Assembly: GCA_945918795.1 (NCBI GenBank)
Contig: CAMEIT010000006.1
Coordinates: 1-60,457, forward strand
Direction of reading: 5' to 3'
Source: an uncultured Clostridia bacterium
Lineage (GTDB): Bacteria > Bacillota > Clostridia > HGM11327
DNA: 60,457 bases
Below the pieces are notes generated by a model. The model was not told where the DNA came from. It saw nothing but the letters and a program-made list of their open reading frames with translations, and made no database searches. Position numbers and translations under genes: made by a program. Positions 6,921 to 46,230 of the stretch are shown here, piece by piece (position 1 is the first letter of the stretch; the number at the start of each line of letters is the position of its first letter).

Positions 6921-7553
6921 TCATTTTGCAGAGCCTGCACTTGACGCTTTTTGCTTAATTCTTTGAATTGCGTTATCTATCGATTTAGGTGTTTTGTTTA
7001 GCTCTGCGGCTATCTGCTGATAATCCTTGCCCTCCATGTATTTGGAAAGTACAAGCATCTCAAAGTCGCTCAGCCTTTCGCACAACGCTCTTGACGCATC
7101 ATCTATTTCTTCCTGCCTTATAATTTCATCCATAGGGTCCTCACCCGACATGGAATCTATCTCATCGACAAGATAATGTTCTGTTCCGTCCGCATCGCCT
7201 ATTTCTTTATACAGTGAAACGTAGCTGTTGAGCGGCAAATGTTTTTTACAGCAAGCCGCCTTGACGGCCGTGAAAATCTGACGCGAAATACAAAGCTCGG
7301 CAAACGTTTTGAAAGATGCGTTTTTATCCGGAGAATAGTCCCTTATCGCCTTAATAAGCCCTATCATGCCCTCCTGAATAAGGTCATCGCTGTCTGCACC
7401 GGAAATGTGGTAGGATTTTGCTTTTATTTTTATACTGCTTCTGAATTTATTTACGATATATTCAATAGCATAAACATTGCCCGACGCCGCCGCATTAGCA
7501 ACGGCGTTAAGCTCCATGCTATCAAAATCGTGTTCATTTGTTTGCGCAGTCAT
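6921..7553 (-). CDS. sigH: Sporulation sigma factor SigH (Spo0H)
   Basis: The 210-residue product has a sigma region 2 with DDLIQEGMIGLIKAIRDY (about 56-73) and a region 4 helix-turn-helix (about 165-200: KYMEGKDYQQIAAELNKT). SigH is the alternative sigma factor for entry into sporulation and competence. The order rlmB-rae1-sigH, all on this strand, is the classic Bacillota arrangement and supports the call strongly. GGAGG lies 12 nt upstream of the ATG. The acidic stretch between regions 2 and 4 (about 120-145) is typical. Confidence 0.94.
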   Translation of the reverse strand: MTAQTNEHDFDSMELNAVANAAASGNVYAIEYIVNKFRSSIKIKAKSYHISGADSDDLIQEGMIGLIKAIRDYSPDKNASFKTFAELCISRQIFTAVKAACCKKHLPLNSYVSLYKEIGDADGTEHYLVDEIDSMSGEDPMDEIIRQEEIDDASRALCERLSDFEMLVLSKYMEGKDYQQIAAELNKTPKSIDNAIQRIKQKASSAGSAK

Positions 7554-26562: not shown

Positions 26563-27804
26563 TTACTGACTTATCTTAAATCGCTTGTTAAGTCCTCCCG
26601 AAACGACGTTCACATCGATATTGTAATCAAGCTTTATGTTGCTTAACATTTCCCCGTCCGACTCCGGTCTGTTATTTTTCCACTCATTGCCGTATTTGCT
26701 GTAAAAAAGGTCCTGTATATTGCAGAAATCGCTTTCCGTTTGAACCATTTTTTGCCATGTGGAATCTATATCTTTTTCTATTCCCGCACTTATTAAGCTT
26801 TTGTATTCATCAAATCGCCTTTCAAGCTTATATGCGGAAATATTGCGCGACTGAAGCTCATTCTCAACCGATATAAACTGCGCCTTTACTCTTATCTTTA
26901 CACGCAGAATATACTGCCCGTCTTCAAATGCAGGTTCAAGCTTGCTGTTTGCACTGAAAAGAGATATTCCGAATGAATTCGGCTCATTGTTTTCGGACTC
27001 GACATTTACGTCATCTATCGTCTCTATTTTGGCAGACATAGTATCGGAAAGCCACTTATATCCATCGAACTCGCTGTCGCTGAGGTACGAAATGAATTTT
27101 CCTTTTTTCATTATGGCACACGGCGACAGTTCTATCATTTTCACATTTTCGTTGTTCTTTTCTCCGCCGTTGCTGCTGTCGCTTGAATTTTCCTCTACCT
27201 CACTCGTCTTTATACCTGCCACAACCGAGCTTGAGCTCAGCATATAATAATTCTTAACGAACTTTTTCAGTGACATATATACGCTGTTTGATTCATAGTC
27301 CTGGTCATCAAGAAGCCTTTGTATGCCGAATGCCGATATGGATTCAAAAACCGTATTGGCGTTGAAAATTTCTTCGGGCGACTCGTCACAGACTATGACA
27401 GATGCCGTATTCCTGAAATTCGACGACCTGAAAAACATATCCAAATGCGGCATTACGTTTTCATCCGCCGCAAACTCACTGTTAAGCAAAATAATCGAGC
27501 AGTGCGCCCAAAATAGCATACTGCCTGTTTTAAGAATAATATTCTCCGACGCTTCTGCAACGGTATCTCCCTCACCCGATATTATAAGGCATGACGAGGT
27601 ACTGCTGCCTGCGTCTCCCTTCATTGGCTTTATCATCTGTATTGTCATTTTTACTCTTTTGTTTTCGCCTTTTTCAAGCCCTACACCGCTTATTAATGTT
27701 ACAGTCTCTATGTTCCTCGGCTGAAATGATTCGTAAAAAAGAGCTAATACGATCATACATATCATTATTATATATACAGTGTAGCTGTTTCTTCTCTTTC
27801 TCAT
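26563..27804 (-). CDS. gerAC: Spore germination receptor subunit GerAC, without lipobox Cys
   Basis: The 413-residue protein matches GerAC in order. An N-terminal hydrophobic segment is followed by IETVTLISGVGLEKGE, SGEGDTVAEASENI, FWAHCSIILLN and a C-terminal domain with STWQKMVQTESDF and FYSKYGNEW. GerAC proteins are normally lipoproteins whose signal ends in GC-W-D. Here the segment reads LALFYESFQPRNIE, and the only nearby Cys (residue 16) lacks a lipobox, so the protein is probably held by its N-terminal helix. It overlaps gerAB by 4 nt (ATGA). Confidence 0.85.
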   Translation of the reverse strand: MRKRRNSYTVYIIMICMIVLALFYESFQPRNIETVTLISGVGLEKGENKRVKMTIQMIKPMKGDAGSSTSSCLIISGEGDTVAEASENIILKTGSMLFWAHCSIILLNSEFAADENVMPHLDMFFRSSNFRNTASVIVCDESPEEIFNANTVFESISAFGIQRLLDDQDYESNSVYMSLKKFVKNYYMLSSSSVVAGIKTSEVEENSSDSSNGGEKNNENVKMIELSPCAIMKKGKFISYLSDSEFDGYKWLSDTMSAKIETIDDVNVESENNEPNSFGISLFSANSKLEPAFEDGQYILRVKIRVKAQFISVENELQSRNISAYKLERRFDEYKSLISAGIEKDIDSTWQKMVQTESDFCNIQDLFYSKYGNEWKNNRPESDGEMLSNIKLDYNIDVNVVSGGLNKRFKISQ

Positions 27805-28931
27805 TTTGCTTCCACCGCTTTTTGTGTATTTTGTGCTTCTTTATTCTTGTTTTTGATAATGACTCCGACAAACAAAAGAAAAACACACCCATATTGCACC
27901 ACGGCACACATAATTGAGCTGAGCCCCATTGCGCTCATAAAATATTTTTCTTCGTTTCTAAACAGGAACACTGCCGGTACTGTCAAAAGAAGCGGCAAAA
28001 TAATTTTCACAATTTTATTATCAGTCAGATTCAGCAGTTCCGTCAATGCGTCAACGGTACAGCTTATGAATATGCAATCTCTTATGAGTGCGCCGAATAT
28101 CCATATCAGTTTTACCGCGGAGTCAAAATTATTGAAAAACACCTTGCTGTTCAAAAAGAGCGACAGCTCGGTTACCGACGTTGTGACAAATGCGGCTATT
28201 ACTCCGAATACACCTATAAAAAATATTGTAAGTGCAATTATGACGGCATACGCTATTCCGCACGCACTCATTACATACTTCATAACGCCTTTCGTCATGT
28301 TCGTCTTATTGAAAAGCATGAGCAGAACGACCGTATTTCCGCTCCATGTAAAAAAGTGCGGCAAAGAATTAATTACAGGTTCTACACCGTTTACCATTAC
28401 AGGTCTGAGACTGTTTATATCAAAATTGCGCACCGCAGAAAGCATTACGAGAAAATACGTTGCAATCATCAGCCAAAAAACTATATTGCTCAGGCGAACA
28501 ACATTGTTCGTACCGCCGAACTGACCGTATATAAGAACAATAATCATAGGTATTGCAAAATAATATATAGGTTCAAGCGTATACGTGCTCATAAATGCGT
28601 ATTCCAACGACTGTCTGAAAAACATGAGCGACTTGAATCCGAAAAGCAATACAAACAGCGCTCCGAAAAATGTGCCTATCATGTTTCCGAACGCATATTT
28701 ACACATACCGATGACAGTCTTGCCTTTTGCGAGCATTCCTATTTTTACGGTAATATAAGCAAATACCATATCAATAGCCGCAATAAGCACAAATATCATC
28801 CATGAGTCTATACCTATAAATATTGCCGCATAATTCGGAACAAACAGTAAAAGCAAAGGAGGAAGCGTCACAATGATAAGATAAAACAGTTCCTTTCCCT
28901 TAAGCTTAAAATTATCGGAAATCAAATACAT
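27801..28931 (-). CDS. gerAB: Spore germination receptor subunit GerAB
   Basis: The 376-residue protein has about ten membrane helices and belongs to the APC-like family of GerAB germinant-binding subunits. It binds the small-molecule germinant in the spore inner membrane; the ligand cannot be deduced. GGAGG lies before the ATG. It follows gerAA by 32 nt and overlaps gerAC, making a standard three-gene receptor operon. Confidence 0.88.
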   Translation of the reverse strand: MYLISDNFKLKGKELFYLIIVTLPPLLLLFVPNYAAIFIGIDSWMIFVLIAAIDMVFAYITVKIGMLAKGKTVIGMCKYAFGNMIGTFFGALFVLLFGFKSLMFFRQSLEYAFMSTYTLEPIYYFAIPMIIVLIYGQFGGTNNVVRLSNIVFWLMIATYFLVMLSAVRNFDINSLRPVMVNGVEPVINSLPHFFTWSGNTVVLLMLFNKTNMTKGVMKYVMSACGIAYAVIIALTIFFIGVFGVIAAFVTTSVTELSLFLNSKVFFNNFDSAVKLIWIFGALIRDCIFISCTVDALTELLNLTDNKIVKIILPLLLTVPAVFLFRNEEKYFMSAMGLSSIMCAVVQYGCVFLLFVGVIIKNKNKEAQNTQKAVEAK

Positions 28932-28963: not shown

Positions 28964-30412
28964 TTATTTACTGTGTCTCATGCGCACTCTGTTTTTTGTG
29001 GGTATTGATTCGGGGCGCAGAAAACGCTGTGTGATAGGCTTCATAAACAGGGCGTCCTGCTTGTCGTTATCGTACAAAGGCGCATACGGAGCCATATAAG
29101 GAATACCTACGCTCGTGAGCGAAACGAGTCGCAGACATACCGCGATTACTCCCACAAGAAGCCCGAAAAAGCCTATAAATCCCGCCAAAATGGTAAACAC
29201 GAATCTCAGCAGATTTATAACATCGGATTCCTCCGGAATATTGTATATCATTATTGACGAGACAGCCGACACCATTACCGCCGGACTGCTTATCGCGCCT
29301 GCATTTACCGCCGTTTCCCCGAGAATCAGCGCTCCGACAATGCTCATTGCCGCACCTATGTGACGTGGCATTCTTACGCTTGCCTCCTGAAGCATTTCAA
29401 ACAACAGCATTGTCACAAGCAGCTCAAGCATAGGATTCATGGGTATTCCGTCTCGTGAATTGACTATTGTAAGGAGCAGGTCTGTCGGGAGCATTTCGTA
29501 ATGGAAGAGAAGCATAGACACATACAGTCCGGGCAAAAGAACCGAAAAAAGAAAACTGAGTAATCTCAGCGCCCTCAAAAAATTTCTTCTTGTCGTGTTG
29601 CCGTAATAGTCACCGCTGTCCTGAAAGTTTTCGATAAAAAGAAACGGTAACGTCAATACCGACGGGCATCCGTCAACAACTACGCATACACGCCCTTCAA
29701 GGAGCTTGCCTGCCGCAATATCGGGCTTTTCGGTTATACCTACCTGCGAAAAAATGGTGCGCCTGTTATCCTGCAAAAATGACTCAATATACGCCGAGTC
29801 AAGGATACCGTCAATATTTATTCCGCTGATTTTTTCCTTTATTGTTTTTACCATGTTCTTGTCGGCAATGGAATTGATATATACCACCGCAACCTTTGTT
29901 GCGCTGTACTTGCCGACGTTTATCATATCGAGCGTGAGGTCGGGTGTTTTCAACTTGCGGCGCAGAAGTGATATGTTCGTTTTTATGTCCTCATTAAAGC
30001 CCTCTCGCGGTCCCCTTATGACCGACGATGTAGGCGGCTCCTCAATGCCTCTCTGCGACCACTTTTTTGCCGAAAAAGCAATCATTTCTTCGCAGTTTTC
30101 CACAATGAGCACTGCAGCCCCGTCTAAAATAAAGCCTGTTGCTTTATTTATATCGTCAAACTTCTCAGCCTCCGAAAACGGCACGACCTCTTCTTCAATG
30201 TGCGTTATTACATCGTCATTCGCCTTAAGGTCAGCCTGCATGAGAGACTTGAGCAGGTCTCTGTTTATCGCGTTGCTGTCCGTAAGCTCATCTATAAAAA
30301 TAATCGCCGCTTTTATATTCTGAGGAATTACAATGTTTTTTATTATCGGTCTTTTGCTCCCGTCAAATGCCGAGTTAATATACTGTACTTTGCTTTCAAG
30401 TGAATCAATCAT
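28964..30412 (-). CDS. gerAA: Spore germination receptor subunit GerAA
   Basis: The 482-residue protein has a soluble N-terminal domain (about 1-235) with VVPFSEAEKF and RGPREGFNEDIKTNISLLRRK, the best-conserved GerA signature. A membrane domain follows (about 275-440) with LRALRLLSFLFSVLLPGLYV. GerA subunits form the ligand-gated channel that starts germination. The start at 30412 overlaps the upstream small gene by 8 nt and has no ribosome site of its own, implying translational coupling; an ATG at 30436 is possible but equally unsupported. Confidence 0.9.
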   Translation of the reverse strand: MIDSLESKVQYINSAFDGSKRPIIKNIVIPQNIKAAIIFIDELTDSNAINRDLLKSLMQADLKANDDVITHIEEEVVPFSEAEKFDDINKATGFILDGAAVLIVENCEEMIAFSAKKWSQRGIEEPPTSSVIRGPREGFNEDIKTNISLLRRKLKTPDLTLDMINVGKYSATKVAVVYINSIADKNMVKTIKEKISGINIDGILDSAYIESFLQDNRRTIFSQVGITEKPDIAAGKLLEGRVCVVVDGCPSVLTLPFLFIENFQDSGDYYGNTTRRNFLRALRLLSFLFSVLLPGLYVSMLLFHYEMLPTDLLLTIVNSRDGIPMNPMLELLVTMLLFEMLQEASVRMPRHIGAAMSIVGALILGETAVNAGAISSPAVMVSAVSSIMIYNIPEESDVINLLRFVFTILAGFIGFFGLLVGVIAVCLRLVSLTSVGIPYMAPYAPLYDNDKQDALFMKPITQRFLRPESIPTKNRVRMRHSK

Positions 30413-30608
30413 TAAACCACATCTTTGTGCCGTCATTCAATGAGACTATCATTTCATCTGTTCTCATTTCGGCTTCATCTCCTGTCTTTGCGTCTTTAAT
30501 GTAATCTATTATCCTGTCCTTCTGCTCGCTGGAAAGTGTTCCGAACTTTGTCAGTGCATCATAATTCATAGCAAGCTTCATACTGAAGCCTATTGGCATA
30601 TCCCGCAT
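30405..30608 (-). CDS. Small conserved protein leading the gerA operon
   Basis: The 67-residue protein reads MRDMPIGFSMKLAMNYDALTK at its start (21 residues; core IGFSMKLAMN) and has an SSEQKDRIIDYIKDAKT helix. It resembles small clostridial proteins of the form IGFGMALAQNEKAM..F..L, whose role is unknown. The start at 30608 follows a near-perfect extended ribosome site, AAGGACGGTGAT. Its TGA overlaps the gerAA ATG, so it probably sets gerAA translation. A perfect palindrome lies just upstream. Confidence 0.65.
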   Translation of the reverse strand: MRDMPIGFSMKLAMNYDALTKFGTLSSEQKDRIIDYIKDAKTGDEAEMRTDEMIVSLNDGTKMWFND

Positions 30609-33140: not shown

Positions 33141-33929
33141 TCAAGCACTGTTGCGCATTCTCAATCTGTCTGCAATCAAGGCAATGAACTCGCCGTTTGT
33201 AGGTCTGTCGTTTGCCTTGTAAATATCTATTCCGAATACCTCGTTCATATTCTGAATTCTTCCTCGATTCCACGCAACGTCTATTGCGTGCCTTATCGCG
33301 CGCTCGACCTTGCTTGAGGTCGTACCGAATTTCTCGGCTATTCCCGGATAAAGCTCTTTTGTTATCTTGTTGACTATGCTTATATCCTCAATTGACATCT
33401 TTACCGCTTCCCTCAGATAAGGATAGCCTTTTATGTGTGCCGGAATACCTATTGTCAAAAAGATAGATGTAATCTTTTCGTCCAATGTGGTAGCAGGCGC
33501 AGAAGCCGTCACTTGCGGAACGGCATAAGTAACAGTAGCTCCGTTTGTAAGCATACCCGCACTGACTTCTTTTATTCTTCTCACCAGCAGAGAAACATCA
33601 ATAGGCATACTCGCAAAATACACCGCCCCCAATGCAAATGCGTGCTTAACCATAAATTCATTCTGTACTGCCGAAACACATATTACTCTCGGCTTGCAGT
33701 CGGATATTTTGGATATTCCTTCCAATACGCCCAATCCGTCTATTACCGGCAGTATCATATTAAGTATGACTACGTCGGGCTTTACTTTTGCTATTGCATC
33801 CAGCGCCTCCTGACCGTTTGAAGCTGTGCCGGCAAGCTCTATTTCATCATGTTCGGCAGCATAATCTGCGATATGTTTTGTCCATTTCATATTGTTGTCT
33901 GCAACTAAAATCTTGATTCTTTGCCCCAT
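33141..33929 (-). CDS. spo0A: Spo0A-type sporulation regulator with a degenerate receiver
   Basis: The 262-residue protein aligns with Spo0A along its whole length. The C-terminal DNA-binding domain (about 148-262) is well kept: GIPAHIKGYPYLREA, LYPGIAEKF and VERAIRHAIDVAWNRG. The receiver (1-125) is not. The phospho-acceptor Asp is Asn57 (VVILNMILP), the acidic pair is Asp11-Asn12, and the conserved Lys is Met108 (ASMPID); Ser86 is retained. Phosphorylation as in other Spo0A proteins is therefore unlikely. AGGAGG precedes the ATG. The usual neighbour spoIVB is absent. It may be a paralogue or a lineage-specific, phosphorylation-independent form. Confidence 0.92.
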   Translation of the reverse strand: MGQRIKILVADNNMKWTKHIADYAAEHDEIELAGTASNGQEALDAIAKVKPDVVILNMILPVIDGLGVLEGISKISDCKPRVICVSAVQNEFMVKHAFALGAVYFASMPIDVSLLVRRIKEVSAGMLTNGATVTYAVPQVTASAPATTLDEKITSIFLTIGIPAHIKGYPYLREAVKMSIEDISIVNKITKELYPGIAEKFGTTSSKVERAIRHAIDVAWNRGRIQNMNEVFGIDIYKANDRPTNGEFIALIADRLRMRNSA

Positions 33930-34015: not shown

Positions 34016-34230
34016 GCGTTTTTTTAATATAATATCATCTCATTTTGTCGTTATTTATTGTATTCTAATGTTTATATCCGTAAAAATCAATATTCGTCAA
34101 AATTTAAAAATCTTTTTGCATAATGTACCGTTTCCAGCAAAATTATCTGATTTCTTTAAAATTTTTAAAAAAAACGAGTGCCGAATCGCTCCTTTGGAAT
34201 CACCGTTTGCTCATATTTTGAATATTTTTG

Positions 34231-38112: not shown

Positions 38113-38142
38113 AATAAAGTGTATAAGACACATTACTTTATT
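38113..38142 (+). promoter_or_regulatory. Inverted repeat upstream of mazE, likely operator
   Basis: AATAAAGTGT and ACAC-att-ACTTTATT form an interrupted 12-bp inverted repeat immediately before the ribosome site of mazE. Antitoxins of this class bind such palindromes to repress their own operon; here that is inference. Confidence 0.5.
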
Positions 38143-38157
38143 CGGGAGGTGATATTC

Positions 38158-38514
38158 GTGTCAAAAGTCGTCAAAGAAAATCTTTCGGAATCTCACAGCA
38201 TCAGAAAACAGATCGATGAAATAATTGCACTGGAAAAAATCAACAAAAACGAATTCATACGCCGTGTGATGGATTTTTATGTAAAAAATAAAGTTCTACT
38301 TATATCCGAAGATAAAATTTCCGAAGGATATAAGGAAATGGGAGATATAAATCTGTCACTCGCGGAGGAAAGCTTATCCTGTGACAGTGAATGTGTGCAA
38401 AAATATGAAAGGTATCTCCTGTCATCGGATATAAATTACAAGAAAGGAGCTGACTTACCGTTTGCAGAGCACAAACAGTACAGTGAAAAATACAGGCATG
38501 ATCAGGCGTGGTGA
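38158..38514 (+). CDS. mazE: MazE/EndoAI-type antitoxin
   Basis: The 118-residue protein has an N-terminal ribbon-helix-helix type segment ([20 protein letters not shown]; helix-rich) and the EndoAI-like toxin-binding region [17 protein letters not shown] further 30 residues follow. It should neutralise the MazF toxin encoded next. A GTG start at 38158 is clear from GGGAGGTGAT just upstream. It overlaps the toxin gene by 17 nt, as usual for such pairs. The C-terminal tail (about 90-118) is longer than in Bacillus EndoAI. Confidence 0.82.
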
Positions 38515-45333: not shown

Positions 45334-46230
45334 TCAAACAAAATTCTCCGTCTCAAAAGCCTTGTTTATTCCCTTTGCAATACACGAGGATATATTTTCA
45401 ACAAGCGAATCTATATCCTTTGGCGTCACAACAAGGCTGTTTACAAAATCATCGTCAATTTCATCCATAACGCTTTGTACTGCGCTTTCGGACGCATTGA
45501 TATTCTGCTTCCTTATGAGCTGTTCCATTACATTATGACAAATCGTTCGCGCATAAACAACCATAGGCACGCCTACACAAATAACTCTGTGTCCGAGCAC
45601 TGCGGAATTTATTACATTTCTGTTATTGCCGAGACCGCCGCCCGGGTTTATTCCGGTATCGGTCATCTGAACGGTATTTCCTATCCTGTGTATATCCCTT
45701 GCACAAAGAGAATCCACCGCGATTATAAGATCGGGAGATATTTTGTCGCATATTCCCTGCAAAATCTCCGCTGTTTCAATACCCGTCACACCGAGCACTC
45801 CCGGCGCTATTGCCGCAACATTCACTTTGCTTTCAAGCCCTGCACACTTGCATACGACCCTTGTAACATTGATTTTATCCGCACATCTTGCCCCCAACGA
45901 GTCGGGCGGAATATGTCTGTTGCCAAGCCCCGCAACAAGAACCGTCGTCGGAAGCGGCGTTTTTATCAATTTAAGCAATTCTTTGCACAAATCGTCCGAA
46001 ACAGCATCCGTGCTTTGTGAGTATTCATCATCCCTTATTTCAAGCGTAATGTATCTCCCGACGGGCTTGCCTATTATATTTGCCGCTTCCTCGGTCTCAA
46101 TTACTATATCCGTAATAACGCGACTTTCGTTTTCATCTGTCGTCATTTTCGTTCCGTCTATGTTCTGTATCTTTTCTTCGCGAAGCACTTTTTCAAGCGC
46201 AAGATCCGTATTAAGCATATATTCATCCAT
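45334..46230 (-). CDS. gpr: Germination protease GPR
   Basis: The 298-residue protease degrades small acid-soluble spore proteins early in germination. It has the N-terminal propeptide site NTDLALE, AGLGNRHIPPDSLGA, the aspartate block LIIAVDSLCAR and TDTGINPGGGLGNNR. Known GPR is made as an inactive precursor in the forespore and self-processes. CGGAGA precedes the ATG. It sits alone between folC and leuS, without the usual spo neighbours. Confidence 0.93.
   Translation of the reverse strand: MDEYMLNTDLALEKVLREEKIQNIDGTKMTTDENESRVITDIVIETEEAANIIGKPVGRYITLEIRDDEYSQSTDAVSDDLCKELLKLIKTPLPTTVLVAGLGNRHIPPDSLGARCADKINVTRVVCKCAGLESKVNVAAIAPGVLGVTGIETAEILQGICDKISPDLIIAVDSLCARDIHRIGNTVQMTDTGINPGGGLGNNRNVINSAVLGHRVICVGVPMVVYARTICHNVMEQLIRKQNINASESAVQSVMDEIDDDFVNSLVVTPKDIDSLVENISSCIAKGINKAFETENFV

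Follow-up and report, generated by a model that had tools for sequence, protein, structure and literature searches.

An aspartate-less Spo0A from uncultured Clostridia with a probable phosphorylation-independent role in sporulation control

Introduction

Phosphorylation of Spo0A is the textbook decision point of endospore formation. The window analysed here, a stretch of 60,457 nucleotides on contig CAMEIT010000006.1 of an uncultured Clostridia bacterium from the gut, encodes a Spo0A that, according to an initial annotation, cannot be phosphorylated normally. Does such a protein still control sporulation, and is it the only Spo0A of its genome? An endospore decision taken without any phosphorylation would be controlled in a new way. 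The question also has a practical side, as surveys of gut metagenome-assembled genomes (MAGs; e.g. PMC11536998) take the presence of spo0A to mark a potential for sporulation.

Results

The spo0A reading frame encodes 262 amino acids and starts with an ATG preceded by an AGGAGG-like site (Table 1). The protein scores 285.9 bits against the NCBIfam equivalog TIGR02875 (spore_0_A; cut-off 200), and its matches to the Pfam profiles Response_reg (54.6 bits) and Spo0A_C (134.3 bits) are both above cut-off. Translation of the reading frame, alignments and profile matches all bear out the substitutions that had been annotated, together with the intact DNA-binding domain. The phosphorylation site, made up of the acceptor Asp, an acidic pair and a Lys, is incomplete: Asn57 occupies the acceptor position, the acidic pair is Asp11-Asn12, with the first acid retained, and Met108 replaces the Lys. 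The switch residues Ser86 and Tyr104/Phe105 are retained, the DNA-contact helix KVERAIRHAIDVAW is intact, and the 0A-box recognition helix KVERAIRHAIDVAWNRG is conserved in an alignment with 1lq1 and relatives. Some alignments include a B. subtilis Spo0A sequence, but no result relies on it alone.

An AlphaFold2 model (mean pLDDT 89.9, with values below 50 in the linker, residues 129-143, alone) features a normal receiver and a normal DNA-binding domain. In Foldseek comparisons, the predicted receiver matches the Spo0A receivers 5wq0 and 1qmp with TM scores of 0.90-0.95, and the predicted DNA-binding domain matches 1lq1, a Spo0A-DNA complex, and 1fc3. In combining a predicted receiver fold with a substituted acceptor Asp, the window protein qualifies as an aspartate-less receiver. 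As read from the sequence, the usual Asp phosphorylation chemistry has been lost and the rest of the protein maintained. Deamidation of Asn57 to Asp was judged unlikely, given the Asn-Met context and the fact that acidic and Lys residues have gone as well. By analogy with RitR, Cys84 might act as a redox switch; this was rejected, as Cys84 is common in relatives with Asp57 too.

Table 1. Features of the window, with positions counted from its first nucleotide
Feature	Position	Strand	Remarks
spo0A, aspartate-less	33141..33929	-	receiver 1-125, linker ~126-148, Spo0A_C DNA-binding domain 153-256
Codon 57	33759..33761	-	AAT (Asn), phospho-Asp position
Codon 12	33894..33896	-	Asn, second acidic-pocket position
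Codon 108	33606..33608	-	Met, invariant Lys position
0A-box-like site	34091..34101	-	TTTGACGAATA, core TGNCGAA; 171 bases upstream of spo0A; weak, chance ~0.16 per 300-base stretch
sigH	6921..7553	-	sporulation sigma factor; NF006148, 224 bits, above cut-off
gpr	45334..46230	-	germination protease (Peptidase_A25)
Germinant receptor subunit A (gerXA)	28964..30436	-	gerA-type
Germinant receptor subunit B (gerXB)	27801..28931	-	
Germinant receptor subunit C (gerXC)	26563..27804	-	
Small open reading frame	38119..38511		MazE-like stretch, below cut-off

The genome to which the window belongs is a MAG of 2.4 Mb in 122 contigs, 94.8% complete, in which the presence or absence of genes was assessed by profile searches. 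It contains three Spo0A_C proteins: the window protein and two others, here called C23 and C43. A canonical Spo0A query (E <= 1e-30) found nothing besides the window protein. At its 94.8% completeness, the assembled genome yielded no full-length Spo0A whose pocket is intact, nor was a canonical copy found in the related genomes RGIG9120 and SIG354, so that a copy missed through a gap in one assembly is unlikely. On the strength of this genome search, the idea that the window protein accompanies an intact Spo0A as an additional copy was rejected.

The two other Spo0A_C proteins are degenerate. C23 (253 residues; L049:7187-7993, G000) retains the acceptor Asp, but Val-Gly-Lys replaces Ala-Asp-Asp and a Thr is at the Lys position; its gene lies near those for a LytTR-type regulator, a histidine kinase and other receivers. 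C43 (209 residues; L050:193-819, G000) has no recognisable receiver. Phosphate control might nevertheless persist through C23 or C43, either by itself or paired with the window protein in a heterodimer. C23 does have an acceptor Asp, a HisKA kinase and a receiver are encoded 2-3 kb from its gene, and short or diverged Spo0A_C proteins recur throughout the family. However, neither paralogue has a complete site, and their DNA-binding domains are much more diverged (87 vs 137 bits). We regard this explanation as unlikely, but it survives best among the alternatives. Each genome of the family encodes one Spo0A_C protein whose receiver is reduced or diverged (L050, L036, L037, L038), and a carD-like gene adjoins in two cases.

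Another possibility is that sporulation is being lost and that the window protein is a relaxed remnant, its receiver decaying under weak selection. Clostridia frequently lose sporulation, several catalytic residues are missing together, and branches in this family are long. The window receiver was compared by codons with that of RGIG9120, an independent assembly of the same genus from water deer rectum (L005/L063) and the only other genome of the genus to yield a full-length Spo0A. With a pN of 0.34 against a saturated pS of 0.90, dN/dS is far below 1. The dN ratio of receiver to DNA-binding domain is 2.3, and most Asp57 pairs tested lie at ~2-3. Because this ratio resembles that of Asp57 pairs and pN is well below the saturated pS, the receiver does not appear to be decaying; by these codon comparisons, the relative strength of purifying selection on it is the usual one. 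The reading frame is also complete, and sporulation regulators, small acid-soluble proteins (SASPs), gpr and germinant receptor genes are all kept. Decay of the receiver is accordingly an improbable explanation.

The gerA, gpr and sigH genes that had been annotated in the window are indeed there (Table 1), and SpoIVA, SpoIIE, SpoIIAA-SpoIIAB-SigF, SigG-like factors, SpoIVB and two SASPs are encoded elsewhere in the genome. It could still be that this Spo0A acts mainly as a repressor or regulator outside sporulation, in metabolism, biofilm or stationary phase, and that sporulation is started by, for example, SigH. Such roles of Spo0A exist in many species, and scoring against an assumed consensus detected no significant 0A boxes upstream of sporulation genes in the window genome, with no convincing site before spoIIAA or spoIIE. 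This test is weak, however, since the consensus was assumed, and in the class as sampled, genomes with a full-length Spo0A mostly have SpoIVA as well. A role mainly in other functions is still less probable. Scored in the same way, the upstream region of the RGIG9120 spo0A contains a 0A-box-like site, TTTGTCGAAAT, with 14.5 out of 15 (chance of 14 or more, 0.012 under the assumed consensus).

The window genome has retained 10 HisKA and 19 receiver matches, which counts against a phosphorylation-independent Spo0A. Missing kinases as the driver of Asp loss were rejected here for the same reason, although they would fit the Glu57 clade described below; since the kinases and receivers remain, the Asn57 change must have had another cause.

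Trees were calculated from 131 rows and, more carefully, from 51 rows, with the pocket columns excluded. The window Spo0A groups with that of RGIG9120 (99/92) and then with that of the sister genus SIG354 (G003; L006/L064; 100/99). The RGIG9120 protein, 57% identical to the window protein, has Asn57, Tyr12 and Leu108; that of SIG354 has Asp57, Ser12 and Lys108; the next relatives have a complete pocket, and Asp57 and Lys108 are retained in most of the 131 full-length Spo0A sequences compared. Asn57 is thus common to both Spo0A proteins of the genus, in which Lys108 is also lost, and is derived at the genus level. Although the genome is a fragmented draft, a sequencing or assembly error or a mutation of one strain is refuted by the Asn shared with an independent assembly at this protein distance and by the Lys and acidic residues altered in both, and has next to no probability.

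The window protein lies outside the canonical Spo0A clade (canonical split 100/100), in a clade of 63 rows with an SH-aLRT value of 100 in the 131-row tree. The canonical gene order is recN-spoIVB-spo0A-steA. Among the examined members of the 63-row group, none has spoIVB or recN beside spo0A. The neighbours of the window gene are an amidase gene, dprA and a ttcA-like gene; the family does encode SpoIVB, away from spo0A, and in the window genome spoIVB is on contig C19 with no spo0A adjoining. The nearest complete-pocket relatives of the window protein (~49-53% identity) are second Spo0A proteins of the Caldicoprobacter type (L069, L042 and relatives). Like the window gene, their genes have no spoIVB neighbour; unlike the window protein, they keep Asp57 and Lys108 and coexist with a canonical Spo0A. 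The second gene in Caldicoprobacter-type genomes is preceded by rsmA and by an uncharacterised gene of ~500 codons; a homologue of the latter lies directly upstream of spo0A in SIG354 and is missing from the window locus. Tree and synteny together indicate that the window gene represents a second Spo0A lineage surviving alone. The best explanation of these data is that this lineage, a paralogue or an ancient transfer, outlived the canonical spoIVB-linked copy in the window family.

The gene directly upstream of the second-type spo0A (L041:5487-7007, L042:4983-6656, L044:7343-8425) has 360-558 codons, a conserved 'GYCK.E.RN'-like N-terminus and weak similarity to DUF7922, and is a candidate functional partner.

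Asp57 has been lost elsewhere. Parsimony on the 131-row tree requires six changes at position 57, and on this tree aspartate-less Spo0A is found in at least five Clostridia lineages separately (Asn, Glu, Ser/Ala): Asn57 in the window genus; Glu57 in G008/G046/G060-G066, in a Christensenella-like group (L076, L086, L089, L100, L107) and in G018/G052; and Ser or Ala in G013/G050. The G008 Glu57 clade (L045, L046, L120, L122, L127, L131, L132, L139, L141) consists of reduced genomes of 0.8-1.5 Mb. HisKA kinases gave no match in eight of its nine genomes and one weaker match in the ninth. Spo0A is the sole receiver match in seven of the nine; G046 has one more, below threshold, and three receivers were found in G060. 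All nine genomes retain SigF/SigG-type factors, both genomes tested for SpoIIE and SpoIVA retain these, and all five tested for SpoIVB retain it; PF00269 SASPs were not found in the clade. Two of these genomes, G008 and G046, still have recN-spoIVB, with spo0A gone from the site. A sister of the clade, G067 (L136; 1.3 Mb), has no HisKA match and no receiver match other than Spo0A, which has Asp57 and a full pocket. G067 is a possible intermediate: its loss of kinases and receivers with Asp57 kept suggests that kinase loss came first in that lineage.

A second, diverged Spo0A persists in several genomes of the Christensenella-like group; those of G074, G075 and G077 have Asp57 but Met at the Lys position. 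The second Spo0A of G070 (L260, C110:7139-7954), at the recN-spoIVB site, has Ser in place of both the Asp and the Lys, and the other Spo0A of this genome has Glu57. G050 (L057, C170:5176-6855) has tandem Spo0A genes beside spoIVB, with Ser at position 57 in one and Asp in the other.

Discussion

On balance, we favour the view that the window Spo0A functions independently of phosphorylation in sporulation control. Of the two proposals in the initial annotation, the rewired switch finds support in the retained sporulation genes; the second Spo0A holds by descent, but no intact copy is present alongside. The suggestion that the protein might be always off is unlikely, because its regulon is intact and it evolves under purifying selection. 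Sporulation in these lineages probably starts by some route other than Spo0A phosphorylation.

How might such a protein work? The receiver, keeping its fold and switch residues but no longer able to take phosphate at the usual place, would most likely serve as a dimerisation and regulatory domain. The unchanged C-terminal domain would bind 0A boxes and start the SigF/SigE programme. Control could be exerted through the amount of protein, by SigH- and Spo0A-driven transcription of its own gene, or through a binding partner or small ligand. We infer both the phosphate-independent activity and the manner of its switching. The simplest option is control by amount: spo0A is preceded by a 0A-box-like site, a good one in RGIG9120 but a weak one in the window. 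Regulation through a ligand or a partner protein would be equally possible.

Two points speak against this view. Asn at the acceptor position is usually inactive in other regulators. For B. subtilis Spo0A, an Asp-to-Glu change alone is insufficient for constitutive activity, according to published work cited in PMC4395418. The G008 Glu57 clade, with HisKA kinases mostly undetected and later sporulation regulators kept, is an independent parallel in its favour. More broadly, the chances seem evenly balanced that several uncultured Clostridia initiate sporulation with no phosphorylation, their Spo0A having independently become aspartate-less (Asn57 here, Glu57 in kinase-poor reduced genomes). 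A Spo0A unable to take phosphate at the usual site, recurrent in several gut lineages, one of them without detectable HisKA kinases, would imply that the decision can also be reached differently, and natural aspartate-less variants offer a means to ask what phosphorylation adds to Spo0A dimerisation.

A literature search, to which many subscription journals were closed, returned no description of an aspartate-less, second-lineage or phosphorylation-independent Spo0A and no report of a genome that has Spo0A but lacks detectable HisKA kinases. Aspartate-less receivers (ALRs) as such are already known, and constitutive DNA binding by them is established in other families, as set out in the available text of PMC4395418, whose named examples include no Spo0A. 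An aspartate-less Spo0A would, within the literature covered by our search, be without earlier description.

Compared with canonical Spo0A (B. subtilis, C. acetobutylicum; TIGR02875), the window protein has the same domain order, length, DNA-binding helix and receiver fold and the same co-occurrence with the sporulation regulon. It differs in Asn57, Asn12 and Met108, in having no spoIVB or recN neighbour, and in its position outside the canonical clade. With the ALRs RitR (Asn53), ChxR, FrzS and HP1043, it shares the replaced acceptor Asp (by Asn in RitR). According to PMC4395418, RitR, ChxR and FrzS tend to lose the second acid while the first acid and the switch residues stay, as in the window protein; the ALRs differ in having another effector domain, and most keep the Lys that is Met in the window protein. 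Truncated phage homologues of Spo0A without a receiver (PMC10294663), which C43 resembles, are another instance of Spo0A output freed from phosphorylation; the window protein, in contrast, has a full receiver and is encoded on the host chromosome.
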